A stretch of DNA of 35,923 nucleotides from positions 1-35,923 of the forward strand of contig JAHCKS010000050.1 in the NCBI GenBank assembly GCA_026125665.1, in the 5' to 3' direction. Of the stretch, positions 3,893-35,923 are shown piece after piece (within the stretch, counting starts at the first letter, position 1; the number at the start of each line of letters is the position of its first letter). This stretch comes from Rubrivivax sp. GTDB lineage: Bacteria; Pseudomonadota; Gammaproteobacteria; Burkholderiales; Burkholderiaceae_C. Under the pieces are notes generated by a model that was not told where the DNA came from, did no database searches, and saw nothing but the letters and a program-made list of their open reading frames with translations. Position numbers and translations under genes: made by a program.

Positions 3893-5965
3893 TCAGGCGG
3901 CGAGCGCCTCGTGCTGCACCGCGGCGGGCGCCGACGCCGGCAAGCCCGCCATCAGCGCTGCATGCGCGGCCAGCTCCATCGGCCGGTGGAAGTGGAAGCC
4001 CTGCAGCCAGTTGCATCCCAGCCGCTCCAGCGCCAGCGCCTGCTCGGCCGTCTCCACGCCCTCGGCGATGACGGTGAGCTTGAGGCTCTTGCCGATGTCG
4101 ATGATGGCGCCCAGCGTGCTGGGCCCCAGCGCCAGGCCCTCGGTGTCGCGCACGAAGGCGCGGTCGATCTTCAGGATGTCGAACGGCAGCGACTTCAGCA
4201 TCCAGATGCTCGAGTAGCCGGTGCCGAAGTCGTCCAGCGCGAGGCGGAAGCCGAGCGAGCGCAGGTGCTGCAGCACCGCCTTGGCCTTCTCGGCGTCCTC
4301 CATCACCGCCGACTCGGTGACCTCGAGCACGATGCTCGAGGGCGGGCAGCCGGTGTGGGCGAGCACCATCTCGACGCTGCGCGCGTAGTTCACGTGCATC
4401 AGCTGGCGCGGCGAGACGTTGACGCTCACCGGCAGTGGCGTGCCCGACTCGTGCAGGCGGCGCGCATGCCGGCAGGCCTGCTCGAGCACCCAGTGGCCGA
4501 CCTGCAGGATCTGGCCCGTCTTCTCGGCCACGTCGATGAAGCCGGCCGGCGACAGCAGCTGGCCTTCGCGCGTGCGCAGCCGCACGAGCGCCTCGGCCAG
4601 CACCGGCTGCCTGCTGCGCGCGTCGACGATCGGCTGCACGTGCAGCACCAGCCGCTCTTCCTGCAGCGCCAGCGCCAGCGCGCGCTCGGTGTCGAAGTCG
4701 CGGCGCATCGAGTCGACGTGGCTGCCGTTGTAGACGATGGCGAGGTTGCCGCCCTGGCGCTTGGCGGCGTACATCGCGCGGTCGGCGCGCATCATCAGCT
4801 CGTCGGGGGCGACATCCGGCGAGTCGCCGAGCACGATGCCGATGGAGGTGCGCGGGTGCAGCAGCGCGCCTTCGCACGACCACGGCTGGCTCACCGCGTC
4901 GAGGATGCGCGCCGCGACGCCGCGCGCGTCGTCCTCGCTGGCCACGCCCTCGAACAGCGCCACGAACTCGTCGCCGCCGATGCGCGCCAGCGTGTCGCCC
5001 GGGCGCAGGATCGACTGCACGCGCCGCGCCGTCTCGACGAGGTACTGGTCGCCGGCGGCATGGCCGAGCGAGTCGTTGACCTGCTTGAACCGGTCGAGGT
5101 CGAACAGGAACAGCACGAAGGGCCGCTCGCCGCTGCCGGCGCGCAGCCGCTCCAGCGAAGCGACGAGCGCGGCGCGGTTGGGCAGCCCGGTGAGGTGGTC
5201 GGTGAGCGCGGCGCGCGTCAGTCGCTCGCGCAGCTCGTTGCGCGCCTCGACGTTGCGCGACATGCTGATCGTCTCGACGACGCGGCCGTTCAGCCCGTAG
5301 GCGTGGCGCAGCGACATCTCCAGCGTCACGTAGCGGCCGTCCTTGTGCCGCCAATGTCCTTCGAGCAGCACGGCGCAGTGCGAGCGCGCCGCGGCCTTCA
5401 ACTGCGTGTTCCAGGGCGCCTTCTCGCTGGGCAGCTGCAGGTCGGTGATGCGGGTGCCCAGCAGTTCCTCGGGCGCCCAGCCCAGGTGGTGGCGCACGGC
5501 CGGCGACACGTACTTGACGACACCCTGCGCGTCGACCTGCATCAGGATGTCCTCGGTGTGCAGCTCCATGAAGGCGTAGCGCTGCACGCGCTCGGCCAGC
5601 GCCGCTTCGCGCCGCTGCATCTCGGCGAAGACGCTCTCGTAGCCGCGCACCAGCGGCTGCAGCGGCGCGGCGAGGCCGGCCACCGAGCCTTTGGCGAGCG
5701 GCAGCCGGAACTCGGCCAGCTGCGCCAGCGAGCGCTCCATCGCCTGCCGTTCGGCCGCGTGCGAGCGCCAGGCCAGCGCGCCGACCGCGGCCGTGCCCGC
5801 CGCCAGCAGCAGCGCCAGCGCCACCGAGGCGGGCTGCGAGGCCTGCACGGCGAGCACGACGTTGAAGGCGTGCGTGGCCAGCACGGCGGCGAGCAGGAAC
5901 GGAAGCGGCTTGCGCATGGCGTTCGGCGTCGAACCCGGTGTGCGGCGCCACCTCTCGGTGGCCAT
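3893..5965 (-). CDS. PAS-GGDEF-EAL cyclic-di-GMP protein, membrane-bound
   Basis: The 690 residues run: two membrane helices (about 21-42 and 46-66), a coiled linker, a PAS domain (about 130-240), a GGDEF domain and an EAL domain. The diguanylate cyclase motif GGDEF is intact at 330-334, and the inhibitory-site motif RxxD (RPGD, 321-324) lies exactly five residues before it. The EAL domain keeps the key motifs: EAL at 458-460, NVSPRQL at 516-522, DDFGTGYSS at 578-586 and EGVET at 635-639. Both activities are therefore possible, with the balance probably set through the PAS domain. An alternative ATG at 5917 (MRKPLPFLL) starts right before the first helix; neither start has a clear ribosome site. 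The gene converges on the radical SAM gene. Confidence 0.9.
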   Translation of the reverse strand: MATERWRRTPGSTPNAMRKPLPFLLAAVLATHAFNVVLAVQASQPASVALALLLAAGTAAVGALAWRSHAAERQAMERSLAQLAEFRLPLAKGSVAGLAAPLQPLVRGYESVFAEMQRREAALAERVQRYAFMELHTEDILMQVDAQGVVKYVSPAVRHHLGWAPEELLGTRITDLQLPSEKAPWNTQLKAAARSHCAVLLEGHWRHKDGRYVTLEMSLRHAYGLNGRVVETISMSRNVEARNELRERLTRAALTDHLTGLPNRAALVASLERLRAGSGERPFVLFLFDLDRFKQVNDSLGHAAGDQYLVETARRVQSILRPGDTLARIGGDEFVALFEGVASEDDARGVAARILDAVSQPWSCEGALLHPRTSIGIVLGDSPDVAPDELMMRADRAMYAAKRQGGNLAIVYNGSHVDSMRRDFDTERALALALQEERLVLHVQPIVDARSRQPVLAEALVRLRTREGQLLSPAGFIDVAEKTGQILQVGHWVLEQACRHARRLHESGTPLPVSVNVSPRQLMHVNYARSVEMVLAHTGCPPSSIVLEVTESAVMEDAEKAKAVLQHLRSLGFRLALDDFGTGYSSIWMLKSLPFDILKIDRAFVRDTEGLALGPSTLGAIIDIGKSLKLTVIAEGVETAEQALALERLGCNWLQGFHFHRPMELAAHAALMAGLPASAPAAVQHEALAA

Positions 5966-24992: not shown

Positions 24993-26177
24993 ATGCCCCC
25001 CACCCTGTTCCGCCGCCTGGTGCGCGCGTGCCTCGCCGGCGCTGCTGGGCTGGCCGGGCCGCTGGCGGCCACGGCCGCCACCATCGTCATCGGCCCCGAG
25101 CGGCAACCGGCCACCTTCGCCGAGGCGCTCGACCGCGCCAAGGACGGCGACGAGATCGTCGTGCTGCCCGGCACCTACAAGGGCGTCACCGGCGTCATCG
25201 GGCAGAAGAAGCTCACCATCCGCGGTCAGGGCGAGCGCCCGGTGATCCTCTTCGACGGCAAGCTCGCTGAGGGCAAGGCGATCTTCGTCGTGAAGAACGG
25301 CGACGTGCGGCTGGAGAACCTGACCTTCCGCGGCGCGCGCGCCGCCGACGGCGACGGCGCCGGCGTGCTGCTCCAGCAGGGCCGGCTGGAAGTGGTGCGC
25401 TGCGCCTTCTTCGACAATGAGCACGGGCTGGTCACCTCCAACGCCGCCGGCGCCGAGCTGACGGTGCTGGAGAGCGAGTTCGCGCACGCCCCGCGCGAGG
25501 TGGGCGGCCTGAACCACCTGCTGTACGTGGGCGCGATCAAGACCTTCACGCTCACCGGCAGCCGGCTGCACAACGGCTTCGAAGGCCACCTCGTGAAGAG
25601 CCGGGCGCGCGACAACCACATCCTCTACAACATGATCCGCGACGGCGCGCAGGGCGAGGCGTCGTACGAGGTGGACCTGCCCGCCGGCGGCCGCGCCACG
25701 CTGATCGGCAACGTCATCAGCCAGAGCCCGCGCTCGCAGAACCCGGTGCTCATCAGCTACGGCTCCGAAGGCAAGCGCTGGGACGACAACGCGCTCGTGC
25801 TGTCGCACAACACGCTCATCAGCGAGGGCTGGCGGCCGGCGTGGTTCCTGCGCGTGCACAACGACCGCGTGTCCGGCATGGGCGAGGTGCTGGCGCTCAA
25901 CAACCTCGTCGTCGGTGCCGGCCTGTTCGAGCTCGGCGCCCTCGGCACGGGGGCCCGCTTCAAGGGCAACCGCCCGGCGATGCTCGGCATGCTGGCCGAC
26001 GTGGTGACCGGCGCGTTCGAGCTGCCGCCCGACTCGTTCTGGCGCGGCAGCGTGCCCGACCCGCGCCGCGCCTTCGGCCGCGACCTCGCGCCCAAGGCCG
26101 AGTTCGACTGGCCGGCGATCGTGCGCGCCATCCCGGCCGACCGTGTACGCTGGGCGCCCGGCGCGTTCCAGCGCTAG
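24993..26177 (+). CDS. Secreted right-handed parallel beta-helix protein
   Basis: The 394 residues begin with a signal peptide (MPPTLFRRLVRACLAGAAG, cleavage near TAATIV) and then show the repeating coil pattern of right-handed beta-helix proteins: DGDEIVVLPGTYKG, KLTIRGQGERPVILF, VRLENLTFRGARA, LEVVRCAFFDNEHGLV and so on to about 330. Pectate lyases, alginate epimerases and many surface glycan-binding proteins share this fold; no catalytic residues are identifiable by eye. The ATG at 24993 is preferred over an upstream frame extending to 24840 because the signal peptide starts here. GATACT at 24979-24984 lies eight bases upstream, so the mRNA may be leaderless. The upstream Pho box points towards it. 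Confidence 0.75.
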   Translation: MPPTLFRRLVRACLAGAAGLAGPLAATAATIVIGPERQPATFAEALDRAKDGDEIVVLPGTYKGVTGVIGQKKLTIRGQGERPVILFDGKLAEGKAIFVVKNGDVRLENLTFRGARAADGDGAGVLLQQGRLEVVRCAFFDNEHGLVTSNAAGAELTVLESEFAHAPREVGGLNHLLYVGAIKTFTLTGSRLHNGFEGHLVKSRARDNHILYNMIRDGAQGEASYEVDLPAGGRATLIGNVISQSPRSQNPVLISYGSEGKRWDDNALVLSHNTLISEGWRPAWFLRVHNDRVSGMGEVLALNNLVVGAGLFELGALGTGARFKGNRPAMLGMLADVVTGAFELPPDSFWRGSVPDPRRAFGRDLAPKAEFDWPAIVRAIPADRVRWAPGAFQR

Positions 26178-26241
26178 CAGCGGTACGGGCGAGCGGGTGG
26201 CGCTGCGCAACGGCGCAGGCCGCCACAGGAGGGCAAAGACG

Positions 26242-27414
26242 ATGGATCCGAAGCAGGTGCACCCCGAGAGCATCGCCGCGCAGGCGCTCGGGCAGGTGGA
26301 CGAGCGCACGCGCGCGATCATCCCGCCGATCCACGTCTCCAGCACCTACCTGCGCGACCCGGACAACCAGTACCGCTCGGGCCGCATCTACGCACGCGCC
26401 GACAACCCGGCCTTCGATGCCGCCGAAGGCGTGATCAACGCGCTCGAAGGCGGCCACCAGGCGATGCTGTTCGCCAGCGGCATGGCCGCGGCCACCGCGT
26501 GTTTCCAGGCGCTGGCGCCGGGCGACCATGTGCTGGCGCCCAAGGTGATGTACTGGTCGCTGCGCAACTGGCTGACGGGTTTCGCCACGCAATGGGGGCT
26601 GCAGGTCGAGCTCATCGACATGGCCGACCCGGCGGCGCTGCGCGCGGCGCTGAAGCCGGGCCGCACGAAGCTGGTGTGGGTGGAGACGCCGGCCAACCCG
26701 CTGTGGACGGTGACCGACATCGCCGATGCGGCCACCGCGGCGCACGCCGCCGGCGCGCTGCTGGTGGTGGACTCGACCGTGGCCACGCCGATGCTGACGC
26801 GGCCGCTGGCGCTCGGCGCCGACATCGTCATGCACGCGGCGACGAAGTACCTCAACGGCCACAGCGACCTCGTCGCCGGCGTGCTGGTGGCGCGCCAAGA
26901 CAGCGCCTACTGGCAGGCGTTGCGCAAGCTGCGCGCGCAGCTCGGCGGCACGCTCGGCTCGTTCGAGAGCTGGCTGCTGCAGCGCGGCCTGCGCACGCTG
27001 CACCTGCGCGTGCGCGCGGCCTGCGACTCCGCCGCGCGCATCGCCACGCACTTCGCGCAAGGCCATGCGCACGTGGCCGAGGTGCTGTACCCGGGGCTGC
27101 CCGGCTTCCCCGGGCACGAGGTGGCGAAGAAGCAGATGCACGGCGGCTTCGGCGGCATGCTGAGCATCCGCGTGAAGCCCGGTGCCGCAGGCGGCGAAGC
27201 GGCGGCGATCGCCACCGCGGCGAACGCGCGGCTGTGGAAACGTGCCACGTCGCTCGGCGGCACCGAGAGCCTCGTCGAGCACCGCGCCAGTGTCGAAGGG
27301 GCGGGCACGCCGGCGCCGGCGGACCTGCTGCGGCTGTCGGTGGGCATCGAGCATGTCGAGGATCTGATTGCCGATCTGGAGCAGGCACTGGCGCGCGCTC
27401 GAGCAGGGGGGTAG
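26242..27414 (+). CDS. Cys/Met-metabolism PLP enzyme (cystathionine gamma-synthase/lyase family)
   Basis: This 390-residue enzyme has the family's PLP lysine Lys202 in HAATKYLNGHSD, Asp177 in DSTVATP, the phosphate-contacting YxR (YARADNP, 50-56) and SGMAA (79-83). The second-subunit loop that usually reads LYGGTY is replaced by MYWSLRNWL (Tyr104 retained), which marks a subgroup distinct from classical MetB/MetZ. It could form or split cystathionine, or use O-succinylhomoserine with sulfide; the reaction cannot be fixed by sequence alone. CAGGAGGG precedes the ATG at a good distance. A hairpin just after its stop separates it from the nitrate locus. Confidence 0.85.
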   Translation: MDPKQVHPESIAAQALGQVDERTRAIIPPIHVSSTYLRDPDNQYRSGRIYARADNPAFDAAEGVINALEGGHQAMLFASGMAAATACFQALAPGDHVLAPKVMYWSLRNWLTGFATQWGLQVELIDMADPAALRAALKPGRTKLVWVETPANPLWTVTDIADAATAAHAAGALLVVDSTVATPMLTRPLALGADIVMHAATKYLNGHSDLVAGVLVARQDSAYWQALRKLRAQLGGTLGSFESWLLQRGLRTLHLRVRAACDSAARIATHFAQGHAHVAEVLYPGLPGFPGHEVAKKQMHGGFGGMLSIRVKPGAAGGEAAAIATAANARLWKRATSLGGTESLVEHRASVEGAGTPAPADLLRLSVGIEHVEDLIADLEQALARARAGG

Positions 27415-27487: not shown

Positions 27488-28129
27488 ATGGCCCATGCAG
27501 GCACTCCGATGCCCCCGCCCGGCGCCCCGCCGGCGGCCGGCGGCGCCTTGCGTGTGCTGCTCATCGACGACGGCGCGCACCGCGTCAGCCTCATCCGTGA
27601 CGAGCTCACGCGCCAGGGTCACATCGTGGTGGGCGTCATCGATTCGGCCATCGCCGTGCACGACTGCGTGCGCTCGCTGCTGCCCGACGTGGTCATCGTC
27701 GACGCGGAGTCGCCCTCGCGCGACACGCTCGAGCACCTGGCGCTCGTCTCGGCCACGCATCCGCGGCCGGTGGTGGTGTTCGCCGAGGACGCCGCGCCCG
27801 GGCCGATGCAGCAGGCGCTGGCGGCGGGCGTGGCCAGCTACGTCATCGCCGGCCTGAACCCGGAGCGCCTGGCGCCGGTGCTGCAGGTGGCCATCGCCCG
27901 CTTCGAGCAGGACCGCGCGCTGCGCGAGCAGCTCGGCGAGGCCCGCACGCGCCTGGAGGACCGCAAGGTCATCGAGCGCGCCAAGGGCGTGCTGATGCAG
28001 GAAGCGGGCATGAGCGAGGAGCAGGCCTTCGGCCACCTGCGCAAGCTGGCGATGGACCGCGGCGAGCGGTTGGTGCAGGTGGCCAGGCGTGTCGTCGAGG
28101 CGCGCGATCTGCTCAAGCCGCGCTCATGA
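27488..28129 (+). CDS. nasT: ANTAR-domain response regulator NasT (transcription antiterminator)
   Basis: The 213 residues hold a receiver-like domain (about 20-140: LRVLLIDDGAHRVSLI, candidate acceptor Asp72 in VIVDAESPSRD) and a C-terminal ANTAR RNA-binding domain (about 150-205: LEDRKVIERAKGVLMQEAGM and SEEQAFGHLRKLAMDRGERL). In the NasST system, NasT binds a leader RNA hairpin pair to prevent termination of nitrate genes, while NasS holds it back when nitrate is absent. The next gene downstream starts with exactly such a leader. Starts at 27488 and 27509 are both possible, and neither has a clear ribosome site. No cytosolic NasS is seen in the window. Confidence 0.9.
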   Translation: MAHAGTPMPPPGAPPAAGGALRVLLIDDGAHRVSLIRDELTRQGHIVVGVIDSAIAVHDCVRSLLPDVVIVDAESPSRDTLEHLALVSATHPRPVVVFAEDAAPGPMQQALAAGVASYVIAGLNPERLAPVLQVAIARFEQDRALREQLGEARTRLEDRKVIERAKGVLMQEAGMSEEQAFGHLRKLAMDRGERLVQVARRVVEARDLLKPRS

Positions 28130-28135
28130 TGCGGT

Positions 28136-28172
28136 GCACCACGAAAAGGCGCGGGTTGCCTCCGCGTGGTGC
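28136..28172. promoter_or_regulatory. Inverted repeat upstream of the sigma-54 promoter (possible activator site)
   Basis: GCACCACG (28136-28143) and CGTGGTGC (28165-28172) form an 8-bp inverted repeat with a 21-base spacer, 65-100 bases upstream of the -24 element. GCACC/GGTGC are NtrC half-site sequences, but the spacing is longer than in classical NtrC sites. It could instead be a weak terminator for nasT. Confidence 0.35.
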
Positions 28173-28237
28173 GGGCGCGGGGCGCGCGGGCCCGTCCGCG
28201 ATCGCGCGGCGCGGGCTGCCTATAGGTAGAGCAAAGC

Positions 28238-28253
28238 TGGCACGCAACGTGCA
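28238..28253 (+). promoter_or_regulatory. Sigma-54 (RpoN) promoter
   Basis: TGGCACGCAACGTGCA matches the -24/-12 consensus TGGCACG-N4-TTGCA, with GG (28239-28240) and GC (28251-28252) exactly 10 bases apart. Transcription would begin about 12 bases after the GC, near 28264, just before the first ANTAR hairpin, so the leader RNA is complete. Confidence 0.8.
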
Positions 28254-28269
28254 ATAGGGATCGGCAAGG

Positions 28270-28293
28270 GCCGCGCGCAATGGCGTGCGCGGC
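28270..28293 (+). promoter_or_regulatory. ANTAR target hairpin P1 in nitrate leader
   Basis: A 9-bp stem (28270-28278 with 28285-28293, one G-U pair) closes the hexaloop AAUGGC (28279-28284). A at loop position 1 and G at position 4 are the conserved bases of ANTAR-bound hairpins. Confidence 0.75.
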
Positions 28294-28304
28294 GCATCCA
28301 GGTG

Positions 28305-28320
28305 CGGACAAAGGCGTCCG
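28305..28320 (+). promoter_or_regulatory. ANTAR target hairpin P2 in nitrate leader
   Basis: CGGAC (28305-28309) pairs with GTCCG (28316-28320) around the hexaloop AAAGGC (28310-28315), again with A1 and G4. Its 3' arm and loop (from 28313) overlap the 5' arm of the following terminator, so the two structures exclude each other. Confidence 0.75.
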
Positions 28321-28376
28321 GCCGTTCGCTCGGAGACGAGTCTCCGAGGCGTTCGGCCGCGACGCCTTCTTGCTTT
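28313..28376 (+). terminator. Attenuator (intrinsic terminator) controlled by NasT
   Basis: GGCGTC and CGGCCG (28313-28324) pair with CGGCCG and GACGCC (28354-28359, 28361-28366). An inner perfect 8-bp stem (28329-28336 with 28341-28348) closes a CGAG loop. The tail TTCTTGCTTT (28367-28376) is the only T-rich run nearby. Together with P2 it forms a classical antitermination switch ahead of the first nrtA-like gene. Confidence 0.75.
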
Positions 28377-28437
28377 GGGTTCGGCTTCCTTCCTGCACAC
28401 GGGGGCGACGGCGATGGCGGTTCCACCAGAGGGCCTC

Positions 28438-29781
28438 ATGAGCGAAGAGCGCAGGCAGTTCATCAAGAGCTCGGCGGCAGCGCTGGCCGCGGGCGCGACC
28501 GGGGCCTCGGTGCACGCAGGCGCCTGGGCGGCCGGCTCCGACGCGCCGGAGAAGAAGGAAGTGCGCGTCGGCTTCATCCCGCTCACCGACTGCGCCAGCG
28601 TCGTCATGGCCTCGGTGCTGAAGTTCGACGAGAAACACGGCGTCAGGATCGTCCCCAGCAAGGAAGCCAGCTGGGCCGGCGTGCGCGACAAGCTCGTCAG
28701 CGGCGAGCTCGACATGGCGCACGTGCTGGTCGGCCTCGTCTACGGCGTGCACCTGGGCATCGGCGGGCCGAAGAAGGACATGGCCGTGCTGATGACGCTG
28801 AACAACAACGGCCAGGGCATCACGCTCTCGCGCAGCCTGGCCGACCGCGGCGCCGCCGACCTCGAGGGCCTCGCGCGGCGGGTGCTTGCCGGGAAGGGCG
28901 CCGAGGGAGTGGCCGCGAAAGAGGCCGCGAGAGAGGGCGCGAGAGGGGCCGCGAGAGAGGGTGAGCTCACGTTCGCGCAGACCTTTCCCACCGGCACGCA
29001 CGCGATGTGGCTGTACTACTGGCTCGCCAGCGCCGGCATCCACCCGTTCGCCGACACGCGTGTCGTCACCGTGCCGCCGCCGCAGATGGTGGCGAACATG
29101 CGCGCGGGCGCGGTGCACGGTTTCAGCGTCGGCGAGCCGTGGAACCACCGCGCGCTGATCGACGGCGTGGGCATCTCCGCGGCCACTTCGCAGGACGTGT
29201 GGCCGGACCATCCGGAGAAGGTGCTCGGCACGACCGGCGAGTTCGTGCAGAAGCATCCCAACACCTGCCGGGCCGTCGTCTCGGCCGTGCTCGAGGCCAG
29301 CCGCTGGATCGACGCCGGCGCGCGCAACCAGCGCAAGATGGCCGAGACGATCGCCGCGCGCGAGTTCGTCAACACCAGCGTCGAGGCGATCAGCCCGCGC
29401 ATCCTCGGCCACTACCAGAACGGGCTCGGCCGCACGTGGGCCGACCCGCATCACCTGCGCTTCTTCGCCGACGGCGCGGTGAACTATCCGTACCTGTCCG
29501 ACGGCATGTGGTTCCTGACGCAGCACAAGCGCTGGGGCCTGCTGAAGGACCACCCCGACTACCTCGGCGTCGCGCGTGCCGTCAACCAAGTCGACCTTTA
29601 TGCGCAGGCCGCGTCGGCGCTCGGCGTGTCGCTGCCGAAGGAGCCGATGCGCGCCTCGCGCCTGATCGACGGCGTCGTCTGGGACGGCCGCGACCCGAGA
29701 GGCTACGCCGACCGTTTCGCCATCGGCGCCGCGCAGGCCGCCCGCAGCGGCCACGGCGCCGCCGGGCTGCCGTTCGCCTGA
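28438..29781 (+). CDS. NrtA/NasF-like nitrate-binding protein, first copy (Tat signal)
   Basis: The 447 residues begin with a twin-arginine signal ([10 protein letters not shown], then an Ala-rich helix). The mature part is of the NrtA/CmpA binding-protein family: [71 protein letters not shown] and [16 protein letters not shown]. It would bind nitrate (or nitrite) in the periplasm. NasS, the cytosolic sensor partner of NasT, is a homologue without a signal; this copy has a signal, so it is more likely a transport subunit. A charged low-complexity insertion sits at 28911-28958. The ATG at 28438 has AGAGGG five bases before it; an ATG at 28414 is also possible. Confidence 0.85.
28911..28958 (+). 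repeat. 12-bp tandem repeat inside the first nrtA-like gene
   Basis: Four 12-base units (GGCCGCGAAAGA, GGCCGCGAGAGA, GGGCGCGAGAGG, GGCCGCGAGAGA) encode Ala-Ala-Lys/Arg-Glu-type tetrapeptides. They lie in a surface loop position of the binding protein, absent from the second copy. The unit keeps the frame. Confidence 0.75.
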
Positions 29782-29867: not shown

Positions 29868-31244
29868 ATGAAGATCCACCGCGCCCTCGACACGCGTCGC
29901 CGCCGCCTGCTCGCCACGTCGGCGCTCGCCGCCGGCGCCGGCCTGCTCGCCTTGCCGCAGGCTCGTGCGCAGAAGGCCGCGCGCCCCGAGAAGGAGGCGC
30001 TGAAGTTCGGCTTCATCAAGCTGACGGACTGCGCGCCGCTCGTCATCGCCTACGAGAAGGGCTACTTCGAGGACGAGGGCCTCGTCGTCACGCTCGAGGC
30101 GCAGGCCAACTGGAAGGTGCTGCTCGACCGCGTCATCGACGGCCAGCTCGACGGCGCACACATGCTCGCCGGCCAGCCGCTGGGCGCGAGCATCGGCTTC
30201 GGCACCAAGGCCGACGTCATCACCGCCTTCAGCATGGACCTGAACGGCAACGCCATCACCGTGAGCAACGCCGTGTGGCAGGAGATGAAGCCGCACCTGC
30301 CGATGGAAGGCGGCAAGCCGGTGCACCCGATCAAGGCCGACGCGTTGAAGAAGGTGGTCGACAAGTGGAAGGCCGCCGGCAAGCCCTTCAAGATGGGCAT
30401 GGTCTTCCCGGTCTCGACGCACAACTACGAGCTGCGCTACTGGCTCGCCGCCGGCGGCCTGCACCCCGGCTTCTACACCGACGGCGACATCACCGGCACC
30501 GCCAAGGCCGACGTGCTGCTCTCCGTGACGCCGCCGCCGCAGATGCCCGCGACGATGGAAGCCGGCACGATCCACGGCTACTGCGTCGGCGAGCCGTGGA
30601 ACCAGCAGGCGGTGTTCAAGGGCATCGGCGTGCCGGTGGTCACCGACCACCAGATCCAGAAGTTCAACCCGGAGAAGGTGTTCGGCGTCACGCGCGGCTG
30701 GGCCGACAAGCACCCGAACACGCACGTCGCGGTGGTGAAGGCGCTGATCCGCGCCTGCATGTGGCTCGACGCGAGCATGAAGAACCGCATCGAGGCGGTG
30801 AAGATCCTTTCCAAGCCCGCCTACGTCGGCGCCGACGAGGCCGTCATCGCCAACAGCATGACCGGCACCTTCGAGTTCGAGAAGGGCGACAAGCGCCCGG
30901 CGCCGGACTTCAACGTCTTCTTCCGCAACCACGCGACCTACCCCTTCTACAGCGACGCCATCTGGTACCTGACGCAGATGCGACGCTGGGGCCAGATCGG
31001 CGAGCACAAGCCCGACAGCTGGTACCTCGAGACGGCGAAGAAGGTCTACCGGCCCGACGTCTACCTGGCCGCGGCCAAGGCGCTGATCGCCGACGGCAAG
31101 GCCAAGGAGACCGACTTCCCGAAGACCGACGGCTTCAAGGGCCCGCAGGACGGCTTCATCGACGGCATCGTCTACGACGGCCGCAAGCCCAACGAGTACC
31201 TGGGCAAGTTCAAGATCGGCCTGAAGGCCGCCGACCGCGGCTGA
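29868..31244 (+). CDS. nrtA: NrtA nitrate-binding protein, second copy
   Basis: The 458 residues start with an Arg-rich Tat-like signal ([20 protein letters not shown], cleavage near ARAQ) and continue as Nrt[86 protein letters not shown] and [10 protein letters not shown]. It is nearer to standard NrtA than the first copy. It would deliver nitrate to the permease that follows. CCGGAG precedes the ATG at 29868. It is 86 bases after the first copy and 21 before nrtB. Confidence 0.9.
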
Positions 31245-31265: not shown

Positions 31266-32234
31266 ATGCAAGCCCTCCTGCAACGTTTCGGCGCCGGCGC
31301 CAGGCTGCCGAGCCTGCCCGACGCACGCACGCTGATGATGTCGCTCGGCGTGCCGCTGATCGCCTTCGCGCTCTTCCTCGTGCTGTGGTCGGTGGTCGCC
31401 TCGCGCATCCAGACGAGCCTGGGTGCCGTGCCCGGCCCGGCCGCCGTCGTCGAGCAGGCCCGGGGCCTGTGGGAAGAGCACCAGGCCGAACGCGAGCGCG
31501 CCGCGCGCTTCTACGAGCGCCAGGAAAAGCGCATCGCCGAGCGCCTGGCCGAAGACCCGGCCTACCAGCCCGAGCGCCACCGCTATACCGGCAAGGCGAC
31601 CTACCTCGACCAGATCCGCACCAGCCTGCTGACGGTGTTCACCGGCTTTCTGATCGGCGCCGCGCTGGCGGTGCCGCTGGGCATCCTCGCCGGCGCGTCG
31701 AAGATCGTGCAGGCGGCCATCAACCCGCTGGTGCAGATCTTCCGGCCCGTGTCGCCGCTCGCGTGGCTGCCGATCGTCACGCTGGTGGTGAGCGCGCTCT
31801 ACGTCACCACGGGCACGCCGATGTTCGAGAAGAGCTTCCTCATCTCGGCCATCACGGTCACGCTGTGCTCGCTGTGGCCGACGCTGATCAACACCGCCAT
31901 CGGCGTCACCTCGGTCGACAAGGACCTCGTCAACGTCGGCCGCGTGCTGCAGCTGCCGCTGGCCACCCGTGTGCGCAGGATCATCCTGCCCTCGGCGCTG
32001 CCGTTCATCTTCACCGGCATGCGGCTGTCGCTCGGCGTGGGCTGGATGGTGCTGATCGCCGCCGAGATGCTGGCGCAGAACCCCGGCCTCGGGAAGTTCG
32101 TCTGGGACGAGTTCCAGAACGGCAGCTCCGATTCACTGGGCCGCATCATGGTCGCCGTCTTCACGATCGGCCTCATCGGCTTCGCGCTCGACCGCGTGAT
32201 GCAGCTGCTGCAGCAGCTGGCGAGCCACAAGTGA
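31266..32234 (+). CDS. nrtB: NrtB nitrate ABC transporter permease
   Basis: This 322-residue inner-membrane protein has a BPD-transport domain (about 115-315) with the EAA loop [20 protein letters not shown] and the family end [16 protein letters not shown] cytoplasmic segment rich in Arg and Glu (about 68-105) follows the first helix, as is usual in NrtB of proteobacteria. It forms the channel for nitrate together with the fused ATPase. ACAGGAG lies before the ATG. The operon continues 40 bases on. Confidence 0.92.
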
Positions 32235-32274: not shown

Positions 32275-34221
32275 ATGAATGCGGTCGTCCTGGAGCGCGA
32301 TGACGCGCGCGAGGCGCAGGCCGCCGCGGCACCGCCGCGGCTGCAGGCGGTGCCGGCGCCGGCGGCGCTGGAGCTGCGCGGCGTGCACAAGGGGTTCGGG
32401 CAGGGCGCGCGGCGCACGCAGGTGCTCACCGACGTCAACCTGCGCATCGAACGCGGCGAGTTCGTGGCCATCGTCGGCTTCTCCGGCAGCGGCAAGACGA
32501 CGCTCGTCAACCTGCTGGCCGGCCTGGGCGCGGCCGATCGCGGCGAGGTGCTGATGGACGGCCGGCCGATCGCCGGGCCGGGCCCGGACCGCGGCATCGT
32601 CTTCCAGAGCTACTCGCTGATGCCGTGGCTCACCGTCGGCGAGAACGTGGCGCTGGCGGTGGACCGCGTGCGCGCCGATGCCGACGCGGCGACACGTGCC
32701 GAGCTCGTGAAGCGCTACGTGGCCATGGTCGGTCTCAGCGCGGCGATCGACAAGCGCCCGGCGCAGCTGTCGGGCGGCATGCGCCAGCGCGTGAGCGTGG
32801 CGCGCGCGCTCGCCACCGACCCCGAAGTGCTGCTGCTCGACGAGCCGCTGTCGGCGCTGGACGCGCTGACACGCGCGCAGCTGCAGGACGAGATCGTCGG
32901 CATCTGGTCGAACGACGGCGGTGAAGCACTCGACGCCACGGCAAGCGCCGCCGGTGCGGCCGAGCGCAAGACGGTGCTGATGATCACCAACGACGTCGAC
33001 GAGGCGCTGATCGTGGCCGACCGCGTGATCCCGCTGACGATCCCGCAGAAGAACGGGCCCGGCGCGACGCTCGGCCGCGCCTTCGCCGTCGACCTGCCGC
33101 GGCCTCGCGACCGCGGCGCGATGAACCACGACCGGCGCTTCCGCGAGCTGCGCGCCGAGATCACGCAGACGCTGCTGAACATGGCGCACGCGCGCGGGAG
33201 CCAGGTCGGCGCGCGGCTCATCTCGCTGCCGACGATGGTGCCGCGCGAGCTGCATGCACGTGCCGCGCCGACGCTGGCCAAGGTGCTGCGCCTGCGCCAT
33301 GCCGATCTGGCCGAGCGCATCGAGCGTGAAGGCGCGGTGGCGGGGCCGCCGCCACTGGCCGCCGTCACCGCGGCCGCGGCGCGTGGCCCGGCTTCACCGC
33401 AGGGCGGCGCCGGGGCCGCCGCTGCACCGGCGATCAGCGACGAGCGTTTCGTCGAGTTCTCGCGCGTCGTCAAGGTCTACCCGACGCCCAAGGGCCCGCA
33501 GACCGTCGTCGACGGCTTCGACCTGCGCATGGCCAAGGGCGAGTTCGTCTCGTTGATCGGCCACTCGGGCTGCGGCAAGAGCACGGTGCTGTCGATGATC
33601 GCCGGCCTCGTCGACGCCACCGAAGGCGTCATCGTGCTCGGCGGTCGCGAGGTGAAGGACGCCGGCCCCGACCGCGGCCTCGTGTTCCAGTCGCCGAGCC
33701 TCGTGCCGTGGCTCTCGGCGTTCGACAACGTGATGCTCGGCGTGGCGCGCGTGTTCCCGCACGCCGGCGCGGCCGAGCGGCGCGACGCCGCGGCCTACCA
33801 CCTGCAGCGCGTGGGCTTGGCCGACGCGATGCACAAGAAGGCGAGCGAGCTGTCCAACGGCATGAAGCAGCGCGTGGGCATCGCGCGCGCCTTCGCGCTG
33901 CAGCCCAAGCTGCTGCTGCTCGACGAGCCCTTCGGCATGCTCGATGCGCTGACGCGCTGGGAGCTGCAGGAGGTGCTGATGGAGGTGTGGGCGAGGAACC
34001 GCGTCACCGCCATCATGGTCACGCACGACGTCGACGAGGCGATCCTGCTCGCCGACCGCGTGGTGATGATGACCAACGGCCCGCGTGCGCGCATCGGCAA
34101 GGTCATGGACGTGCCGCTCGAACGCCCGCGTTCGCGCGAGGCGCTGCTGGCGCACCCGCGCTACTACGAGCTGCGCGAGGACCTGATCGGCTTCCTCGCC
34201 GCCTGCGGCCACCAGCACTGA
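32275..34221 (+). CDS. Fused NrtC/NrtD-type double ATPase of the nitrate transporter
   Basis: This 648-residue protein joins two ABC ATPase domains. Domain 1 (about 33-285): Walker [10 protein letters not shown] (68-76), signature LSGGMRQR (165-172), Walker B VLLLDEP, D-loop ALDALT. Domain 2 (about 393-640): Walker [10 protein letters not shown] (429-437), signature LSNGMKQR (526-533), Walker B LLLLDEP, H-loop VTHDVDEA. In domain 1 the switch His is replaced by Asn239 (ITNDVDEA), and in domain 2 the second Gly of the signature is Asn. A helical linker (285-390) joins the domains. In cyanobacteria NrtC and NrtD are separate; the fusion fits proteobacterial loci. GGGAGG precedes the ATG at 32275. 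Confidence 0.9.
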
Positions 34222-34264: not shown

Positions 34265-35923
34265 ATGAAGAAACCCCGACTCGTCCTGATCGGCAACGGC
34301 ATGGCCGGCGTGCGCACGCTCGAGGAGCTGCTGGCGATCGCGCCCGACCTCTACGACATCACGGTGTTCGGCGCCGAGCCGCACCCGAACTACAACCGCA
34401 TCCTGCTGTCGCCGGTGCTGGCCGGCGAGCAGATGCTGGACGAGATCGTGCTGAACCCGGTCTCGTGGTACCAGGAGCATGGCATCACGCTGCACCTGGG
34501 CAAGAAGGTCACGAAGGTCGATCGCGTGCGCCGCGTCGTCACCGCCGAGGACGGGCAGGGCGGCCAGGTGCAGGCCGAGTACGACCGGCTGCTCGTCGCC
34601 ACCGGCTCCAACCCGTTCGTCCTGCCCGTGCCGGGCAAGGACCTGCCGGGTGTGCTCGCCTACCGCGACATCGCCGACACGCAGGCGATGATCGACGCCG
34701 CGGCGAAGCACAAGCACGCGGTGGTCATCGGCGGCGGCCTGCTCGGGCTCGAAGCGGCCAATGGCCTCAAGGCGCGCGGCATGGACGTGACGGTCGTGCA
34801 CATCATGCCGTGGCTGATGGAGCGCCAGCTCGACAAGACGGCGGCCGACCTGCTGCAGCGCTCGCTCGAGGACCGCGGGTTGAAGTTCGAGATCGGTGCG
34901 CAGACCGAGGCGCTGCTGCCGGGCGACGACGGCCGCGTGGCGCGGGTGCGCTTCAAGGACGGGCGCGAGATCCCGGCCGAGCTCGTGGTGATGTCGGCCG
35001 GCATCCGGCCGAACACCGCGCTGGCCGAATCGATGGGCCTGCTGTGCAACCGCGGCATCGTCGTCACCGACACGCTGCAGACGGTGACCGACCCGCGCAT
35101 CTACGCGGTGGGCGAGTGCGCGGCGCACCGCGGCGTCGCCTACGGCCTGGTGGCGCCGCTGTTCGAGCAGGGCAAGGTGTGCGCCAACCACCTGGCGCAG
35201 TTCGGCATCGGCCGCTACAGCGGCAGCCAGACGTCGACCAAGCTGAAGGTCACCGGCATCGACCTGTTCTCGGCCGGCAACTTCATGGGCGGCGACGGCT
35301 GCGAGGAGATCGTCATGAGCGATCCCTCGGGCGGCGTGTACAAGAAGCTCGTCATCCGGGGCGACAAGCTCGTCGGCGCGTGCCTGTACGGCGACACGGT
35401 GGACGGCAGCTGGTACTTCAAGCTGCTGCGCGAAGGGCGGCTCGTCGGCGACATCCGCGACAAGCTGATGTTCGGCGAGAGCAACATCGGCGACACCGGG
35501 CACCAGGGCCAGAACCGGGCCGCGGCGATGGCCGACAGCGACGAGGTCTGCGGCTGCAACGGCGTGACCAAGGGTCGCATCTGCAAGGCGATCAAGGACA
35601 AGGGCCTCTTCACGCTCGAGGAGGTGCGCAAGCACACCAAGGCGAGCGCGAGCTGCGGCTCGTGCACGGGCCTGGTCGAGCAGCTGCTGATGGTGACCGC
35701 CGGCGGCGACTACAGTGCCGCCCCGAAGCTGAAGGCGATGTGCGGCTGCACCTCGCACGGCCATCAGGCGGTGCGCGACGCGATCCGCGAGCAGCACCTG
35801 CTGAGCATCGACGACGTGTACCGCGCGCTCGAGTGGCGCACGCCCAACGGCTGCGCCAGCTGCCGGCCCGCCGTCAACTACTACCTCATCAGCACCTGGC
35901 CGAAGGAGGCCGAGGACGACCCG
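34265..35923 (+). CDS. nirB: Assimilatory nitrite reductase NirB (NADH), large subunit, 3' end outside window
   Basis: The first 553 residues are present; the frame is open to the last base. They show an FAD-binding Rossmann motif VLIGNGMAG (7-15), an NAD-binding motif VIGGGLLGLEAA (154-165), an FAD-closing motif IYAVGECA, and two BFD-type [2Fe-2S] domains. The first BFD domain has Cys429, Cys431, Cys464 and Cys467 (CGC, CGSC); the second begins CGCTSHGHQAV and ends NGCASC. The siroheme/[4Fe-4S] domain lies outside the window. NirB passes electrons from NADH through FAD to siroheme, reducing nitrite to ammonium in the cytoplasm. It is 43 bases after the transporter ATPase gene, so import and reduction are co-transcribed. 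Confidence 0.93.
   Translation, partial: MKKPRLVLIGNGMAGVRTLEELLAIAPDLYDITVFGAEPHPNYNRILLSPVLAGEQMLDEIVLNPVSWYQEHGITLHLGKKVTKVDRVRRVVTAEDGQGGQVQAEYDRLLVATGSNPFVLPVPGKDLPGVLAYRDIADTQAMIDAAAKHKHAVVIGGGLLGLEAANGLKARGMDVTVVHIMPWLMERQLDKTAADLLQRSLEDRGLKFEIGAQTEALLPGDDGRVARVRFKDGREIPAELVVMSAGIRPNTALAESMGLLCNRGIVVTDTLQTVTDPRIYAVGECAAHRGVAYGLVAPLFEQGKVCANHLAQFGIGRYSGSQTSTKLKVTGIDLFSAGNFMGGDGCEEIVMSDPSGGVYKKLVIRGDKLVGACLYGDTVDGSWYFKLLREGRLVGDIRDKLMFGESNIGDTGHQGQNRAAAMADSDEVCGCNGVTKGRICKAIKDKGLFTLEEVRKHTKASASCGSCTGLVEQLLMVTAGGDYSAAPKLKAMCGCTSHGHQAVRDAIREQHLLSIDDVYRALEWRTPNGCASCRPAVNYYLISTWPKEAEDDP

Follow-up and report, generated by a model that had tools for sequence, protein, structure and literature searches.

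A probable two-lock control region, NtrC/sigma-54 followed by NasT antitermination, in front of an operon for nitrate uptake and nitrite reduction in Rubrivivax sp.

We analyzed a stretch of 35,923 nucleotides of DNA from Rubrivivax sp. (contig JAHCKS010000050.1), referred to here as the window. It contains a nasT gene, a leader region with hairpins and an intrinsic terminator, and the operon nrtA1-nrtA2-nrtB-nrtCD-nirB (Table 1). The initial annotation of this DNA, made from the letters alone, had placed a NasT gene directly upstream of the leader, and the gene is there. Its product has receiver-like and ANTAR domains, and it adjoins the nitrate operon, as in NasS-NasT systems. At a threshold of 1e-6, this NasT was the sole ANTAR match in its own genome, and it is presumably the antiterminator of the leader. 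Immediately 5' of nasT lies a gene for a Cys/Met metabolism PLP enzyme (26143-27414, forward strand), and no nasS-like gene was found on the upstream side of nasT in the window.

Table 1. Positions in the window of the regulatory elements and genes discussed in the text.
Feature	Position	Strand	Description
nasT	27488-28129	+	REC-like domain and C-terminal ANTAR domain; Pfam ANTAR 4.6e-21, Response_reg 1.8e-7
Candidate NtrC enhancer half-sites	28136-28172	+	GCACCA 28136-28141 and TGGTGC 28167-28172; 31 nt start to start
Sigma-54 promoter	28238-28253	+	TGGCACGCAACGTGCA; GG at -24 is 28239-28240, GC at -12 is 28251-28252
P1 hairpin	28270-28293	+	9-bp stem; hexaloop AAUGGC 28279-28284
P2 (antiterminator) hairpin	28305-28320	+	5-bp stem; hexaloop AAAGGC 28310-28315
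Intrinsic terminator	28311-28376	+	Arms 28311-28324 and 28354-28368; U-rich tract to 28376
SBP1 (nrtA1)	28438-29781	+	First operon gene; NMT1_2 1.9e-91; 2g29 (NrtA structure) 4.9e-71; nitrate-site letters kept
SBP2 (nrtA2)	29868-31244	+	Second nitrate-binding protein; N-terminal arginine-rich signal
nrtB permease	31266-32234	+	BPD_transp_1 1.3e-22; TIGR01183 150.3 bits, below the cut-off of 209
nrtC-nrtD fused double ATPase	32275-34221	+	TIGR01184 (ntrCD) 583.9 bits, above cut-off, two stretches
nirB, nitrite reductase large subunit	34265-35923	+	TIGR02374 587.4 bits, above cut-off; contig end cuts the gene

The two substrate-binding proteins of the operon are of different types. SBP1 is a betaproteobacterial-type nitrate-binding protein with a Tat-like signal (RRQFIK) that scores marginally below the Pfam cut-off for TAT_signal (22.4 vs. 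22.7 bits). SBP2 is 37% identical to SBP1 and clusters with gammaproteobacterial NrtA. In its nas region, a close relative encodes another ANTAR protein, which carries a PilJ domain (L042:10082-11509, reverse strand; L numbers designate individual loci); no second ANTAR match was found in the genome of the window.

We found a sigma-54 promoter downstream of nasT, as the initial annotation had proposed. The sequence TGGCACGCAACGTGCA matches TGGCACG-N4-TTGCA at 11 of its 12 fixed letters and keeps the GG-N10-GC spacing. By itself the motif is not significant, because the window contains one match when a single mismatch is allowed, compared to 0.40 expected. In comparisons among relatives, the site is convincing by its position and conservation and not by its motif score. 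We chose 39 nasT loci from betaproteobacteria, a set in which one genome is represented twice (L013 and L043). In 38 of them, the best site within 330 nt 3' of nasT has at least 10 of the 12 letters; L069 is the only one of the 39 without a sigma-54 site in that interval. Counting from the GC at -12, the transcript is expected to start at approximately 28264, six bases 5' of P1.

The region between nasT and the promoter also contains a candidate enhancer. The hexamers GCACCA and TGGTGC occurred 41 times in 38 nasT-to-promoter intervals (one genome entered twice) compared to 3.5 times in letter shuffles, and 31 of the 38 intervals had at least one. By comparison with the NtrC consensus, we take these hexamers to be candidate sites for NtrC. 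Matches to the full NtrC palindrome were not above chance (34 loose matches vs. 35 expected), and we therefore claim half-sites only. Both proteins needed at such a promoter are encoded in the genome of the window, with scores over the curated cut-offs: RpoN (424.3 bits, in two pieces) and NtrC (627 bits, positions 1-389 of 463, cut by a contig end).

The leader contains two hairpins, P1 and P2, separated by a linker of 11 nt. Their hexaloops are the ones that had been read from the sequence initially, AAUGGC and AAAGGC, each with A at position 1 and G at position 4 (A1 and G4). ANTAR dual-hexaloop leaders are defined by two tandem stem-loops whose hexaloops have A1 and G4 (PMC3369931). The leader in the window has two tandem stem-loops of at least 3 bp with these letters, an overlap between P2 and the terminator, and a short linker. 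In the eut leaders of E. faecalis, the linker is 5-12 nt long and linkers of 3 or 14 nt are harmful (PMC3369931).

The terminator shares sequence with P2. Its 5' arm consists of the P2 loop from the second A onward plus the P2 3' arm, in agreement with the overlap claimed initially; a simple terminator scan gave a shorter stem (28346-28368). The predicted fold of 28264-28380, a calculation that the initial annotation had named as a check, has a free energy of -76.2 kcal/mol (z = -5.6). In minimum-energy folds of the growing RNA, P1 and P2 were present when the RNA ended at 28321. A different local hairpin replaced P2 at ends 28330 and 28340, P2 was back at 28350, four of its pairs were left at 28360, and the terminator was found from 28370 onward. 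The terminator state (-76.2 kcal/mol) is approximately 15 kcal/mol more stable than the state in which P1 and P2 are held (-60.9 kcal/mol). As modeled, P2 and the terminator are mutually exclusive and P2 is able to form first, so that something would have to hold P2 for read-through. Compared to most of nine close leaders, the terminator in the window has a poorer U-tract (UUCUUGCUUU), and this weak tract may make termination leaky.

Pairing in the leader is conserved. In the nine close leaders, P1 and P2 were paired in 90.0% of alignment cells, compared to 79.4% in shuffled and 30-62.5% in slid controls, with six two-sided pair changes, every one of them in P1; P2 alone had no two-sided change among these nine. 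The terminator was paired in 95.2% of cells (shuffled, 88.9%; slid, 27-60%) and had five two-sided changes. Across the nine aligned leaders, the P1 loop lies 37-41 nt past the start of the sigma-54 site, a distance that shows tight coupling of promoter and P1.

We scanned nasT loci more widely for similar leaders. The set of 106 comprised the window, relatives and named loci (best 80 of 584); L033 was on the wrong strand, L011 and L013 were dropped as duplicates, and L026 and L073, which are from one genome, were both kept. A sigma-54 site with at least 10 of the 12 letters was present in 96 of the 106 loci. At least two AANG hexaloop hairpins followed within 130 nt of the site in 57 of these 96 (two hairpins in 40, three in 17, one in 22 and none in 17). 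No shuffled region (0/1,920) had two or more; the count takes the site with the most hairpins in each locus, and the shuffles use only that chosen region. If the structure in the window were a common attenuator or a fold formed by chance that operates without NasT, a sigma-54 motif that by itself is near chance would be unsurprising. However, the frequency of paired hexaloop hairpins after the promoter in nasT loci relative to shuffles and the covariation in P1 and the terminator argue strongly against this explanation, and we regard it as highly improbable.

A covariance search, also named initially as a check, succeeded in part. A P1-P2 model made from 12 leaders, the window's own among them, matched 26 of 91 unused loci at E ≤ 0.01, but matches to the Rfam families P11 and narK RNA stayed below their gathering scores. 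With the P1-P2 model, the site in the window was the only strong match in its own genome (62.4 bits; next, 22.0 bits). We rejected the next matches (22.0 and 20.6 bits) as a second NasT target; both are without a close upstream sigma-54 site of at least 10/12 letters.

Some leaders in the scan have a different layout. Three A1/G4 hexaloop hairpins in tandem were found in L049:7879, L051:8483, L081:8009, L100:6732, L020 and 12 more loci, and in these 17 of 96 leaders the first loop is 32-45 nt past the start of the sigma-54 site. The three may be two recruitment hairpins and one antiterminator hairpin. Such leaders lend themselves to testing the model in which ANTAR proteins bind successively (PMC8934654). 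Titles and abstract openings on three-hairpin ANTAR leaders and on NasT/NasS, from a literature set with few subscription journals, contained no three-hexaloop nas leader. In part of the genus of the window (L024, L025, L026/L073, L027, L028 and L029), P1 and P2 are separated by 38-40 nt, and in folds of L025 and L073 this long gap contains an additional helix. Antitermination by EutV was abolished by a 20-nt extension of the linker (PMC8934654).

Control by NtrC and sigma-54 combined with ANTAR antitermination is an established scheme, to which the window adds a new member from the betaproteobacteria. Two Herbaspirillum loci, L064 and L068, share the layout of the window. The initial description of the control as complete was right but not new, because the same scheme is known from Klebsiella nasF/NasR, Pseudomonas nalA/NasT and Paracoccus nas. 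The ANTAR antitermination model has been described (PMC3369936, PMC3369931). The Pseudomonas nalA/NasT system has a sigma-54 promoter, NtrC, a short leader, a terminator and antitermination by NasT (PMC12830290, PMC3973561). The window follows this scheme, as found at P. aeruginosa nalA (nirBD operon), but differs in operon order and in that no NasS was found in its genome. In Klebsiella oxytoca nasF/NasR, dual A1/G4 hairpins, with P2 overlapping the terminator, precede a nitrate operon (PMC3369936), and the window shares all three features. In contrast to NasR, which senses nitrate with its own NIT domain, the regulator in the window is a NasT with a receiver-like domain. The NasS-NasT system of Paracoccus denitrificans has a hairpin leader and NtrBC input (PMC5424462, PMC3795266). 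The window resembles it in having NasT, a hairpin leader and, presumably, NtrC input. P. denitrificans NasS is signal-less and cotranscribed with nasT, whereas the NrtA-like proteins of the window all have arginine-rich export signals.

Sub-threshold matches to two Rfam families point to the same kin. The alignment of P11 (RF00625), which we take to be the P. aeruginosa nalA leader, runs from the promoter through the terminator (28226-28366), and the P11 consensus contains the P2 motif GGACAAAGGCGUCC; its score was 28.3 bits, short of the gathering score of 70. The 72-position model of narK RNA (RF03032) aligned to 28239-28320 with matching loop positions, at 25.1 bits compared to a gathering score of 43.2, and its first positions correspond in the window to the sigma-54 promoter and not to RNA. 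The 5' ends of RF00625 and RF03032 appear to hold the non-transcribed sigma-54 promoter (UUGGCACA...UGC and GGCaCA...UUGCU in the consensus). Because both families seem to include the promoter, part of their 'RNA' conservation may be conservation of DNA. Matches to the families mir-341, mir-354 and P18 in the window were taken as chance.

We propose that the region upstream of nrtA1 is a two-lock control region for the nitrate uptake and nitrite reduction operon, opened by NtrC/sigma-54 and then by NasT antitermination, and we consider this very likely (probability roughly 0.86). The proposal builds on the sequence elements, their conservation and covariation, the predicted folds, and the genes for RpoN, NtrC and NasT found here; we infer the binding of NtrC, the binding and activity of NasT, and the nitrate signal at this leader. 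At the first lock, nitrogen limitation would lead phosphorylated NtrC to activate sigma-54 RNA polymerase at 28238-28253. RNA would begin near 28264, and P1 and then P2 could fold on the emerging transcript. At the second lock, NasT would bind the A1/G4 hexaloops and hold P2. Without this hold, the P2 loop and 3' arm would be taken up into the more stable terminator, ending transcription near 28376; with active NasT, polymerase would proceed into nrtA1-nrtA2-nrtB-nrtCD-nirB. In Acidovorax citrulli, a strain with ntrC deleted did not grow on nitrate and its 'nasS' was down (PMC10052978). In the same mutant nasT was up, not down (PMC10052978), which counts against the two-lock reading.

The initial annotation had assigned nitrogen status to RpoN/NtrC and nitrate to NasT. 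The promoter and RNA part of this logic is well supported by the sigma-54 site, the RpoN and NtrC genes, the dual hexaloops, the exclusive pair of P2 and terminator, and the conservation and covariation. The assignment of nitrate to NasT fared less well, as we found no signal-less NasS in the genome of the window, which is 88.6% complete. In the systems studied, NasS has no export signal and nitrate reaches NasT through NasS (PMC3795266). The only matches to the NrtA family in the genome of the window at 0.001 were SBP1 and SBP2; the two are encoded in this operon and carry arginine-rich signals (export signals were assigned by eye).

We found that the lack of a detectable NasS extends to relatives. 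Among 61 genomes searched, 26 (the window's own included) had a NasT match at 1e-15. None of the 22 genomes with NasT and a Tat-type SBP1 (again including the window's own) had a signal-less homologue at E 1e-20, a threshold that weaker homologues in relatives would escape. The same query recovered the canonical NasS of G039 (G numbers designate genomes), which served as a positive control. G041 has a different Tat-type protein. The NasT matches of G038 and G056 are partial, and neither of these genomes has an ANTAR match. Because 22 of the 26 NasT genomes have a Tat-type SBP1 and no signal-less homologue, NasT without NasS appears to be the common state among these relatives. Titles and abstract openings on NasT/NasS in Burkholderiales, on Herbaspirillum and on nalA, from the same literature set with few subscription journals, contained no NasT system without NasS. 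How NasT senses nitrate becomes a testable question in this group of systems, which are apparently without NasS. We also considered distant NrtA homologues as a hidden NasS and rejected them; 11 from NasT-bearing genomes (L151-L161) show an N-terminal RR tail and, by their sequences, look like another subfamily.

With NasS missing, NasT may be constitutively active, in which case every activation by NtrC would give read-through of the leader and control by nitrate would be weak or lost. In the published complex, NasS keeps NasT inactive without nitrate (PMC3795266), and loss of NasS should therefore free NasT. However, the leader, both loops and the terminator are conserved in relatives, which would be odd for a switch without a signal, and we think an ungated NasT rather unlikely. 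A different partner or ligand might gate NasT instead, for example c-di-GMP, an undetected protein, or a NasS encoded in the missing part of the genome. An effect of c-di-GMP on P. putida NasT has been reported (PMC12830290), and the incompleteness of the window's own genome (88.6% complete) leaves room for a missed gene. In contrast, 15 of the 22 NasT genomes without detected NasS are at least 90% complete, which makes an assembly gap unlikely as a general cause. We hold gating by another partner to be doubtful.

The window also encodes a GGDEF-EAL protein (c-di-GMP turnover; 3893-5965, reverse strand), which may be relevant given the reported action of c-di-GMP on P. putida NasT.

Another possibility, to which we give clearly less than an even chance, is that SBP1, with its Tat-like signal, is itself the nitrate sensor of NasT; on this view, Massilia, Janthinobacterium and Xanthomonas derived their cytoplasmic NasS-like proteins from SBP1 by loss of the signal. 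SBP1 would fold in the cytoplasm before Tat export, bind NasT when empty and release it with nitrate. The absence of signal-less homologues from the 22 genomes with NasT and Tat-type SBP1, with the control NasS found in G039, is consistent with this. So is the distribution of SBP1 among the named loci (best 80 of 584 relatives; the broken SBP pieces of L061 and the short pieces of L065, L088 and L094 were left out before counting). Tat-type SBP1 has nrtB and nrtCD downstream in 29 of 30 tree-set loci, and the thirtieth, L091, ends at a contig edge. Signal-less SBP1 was found in 12 loci (Massilia, Janthinobacterium, Pseudoduganella, Xanthomonas, Lysobacter and others) and adjoins nasT in all 12, and within the available stretch none of them has nrtB or nrtCD downstream. 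An MFS transporter is present in six of the seven signal-less loci scanned; in the seventh, the ORF scanned sits before the second leader of that locus. Upstream of the signal-less SBP1, an ABC system of weak similarity is present in L101, L108 and L118, and in L118 this SBP1 still lies downstream of its own leader.

The phylogeny of SBP1 is compatible with loss of the signal. The 12 signal-less rows form a single clade (100/100) nested in Tat rows (99/95 and 96/94). However, these trees flag long branches that meet, and Tat monophyly was not rejected in an AU test with all rows (p = 0.08). It was rejected only without the long rows (p = 0.034), in a tree that covers six of the 12 signal-less rows and whose bootstrap is not settled. 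Loss of the signal is also one evolutionary event, and its association with the transporter genes is therefore not a statistical correlation.

SBP1 has persisted in the window beside a transporter of another type. Among the best 80 of 584 relatives, the window's nrtB scored 345-414 bits against 12 SBP2-type loci and 129-156 bits against 29 Tat-type SBP1 loci. SBP2-nrtB-nrtCD of the window is thus of another type than SBP1, and SBP1 is nevertheless in place; the only nrtB-like matches in its genome were the window's own (44%) and one at 30%. One reading of these comparisons is that SBP1 may have been kept for NasT. The letters W, Q, H and K, which line the nitrate site of NrtA, are kept in 31/31 Tat rows and 12/12 signal-less rows, also in line with a sensor role. 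Several points weigh against SBP1 as the sensor. Export should deplete the cytoplasm of it, and the signals were called by eye. Letters common to SBP1 and canonical NasS (26:20, 18:17 and 13:9 at three thresholds) lean slightly at most over the control (31:30, 23:26 and 19:20), and we did not retain them as a sign of a common NasT interface.

An extended form of the sensor proposal, which we find rather unlikely, makes SBP1 both an exported uptake receptor and a pre-export sensor that holds NasT, with NasS having arisen a second time in an Oxalobacteraceae lineage that lost the transporter and the Tat signal. If SBP1 did have this dual role, there would be a negative feedback loop, because its gene is inside the operon that NasT opens. 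SBP1 could then be an example of an uptake receptor that also acts as a sensor in the cytoplasm or has turned into one.

The SBP1 of the window has a long end branch (0.33, compared to 0.026 for L044). It contains an Ala/Arg/Glu/Gly-rich insert of approximately 20 residues (encoded at about 28890-28965), a few residues before a conserved GTH motif, that is missing from L044 and L042. L072, L105 and L119 had no SBP match within the available stretch. RR signals are visible in L088 and L094, which are cut by contig ends, and in L070 (Acidovorax) SBP1 is the sole NrtA-like protein in the available stretch.
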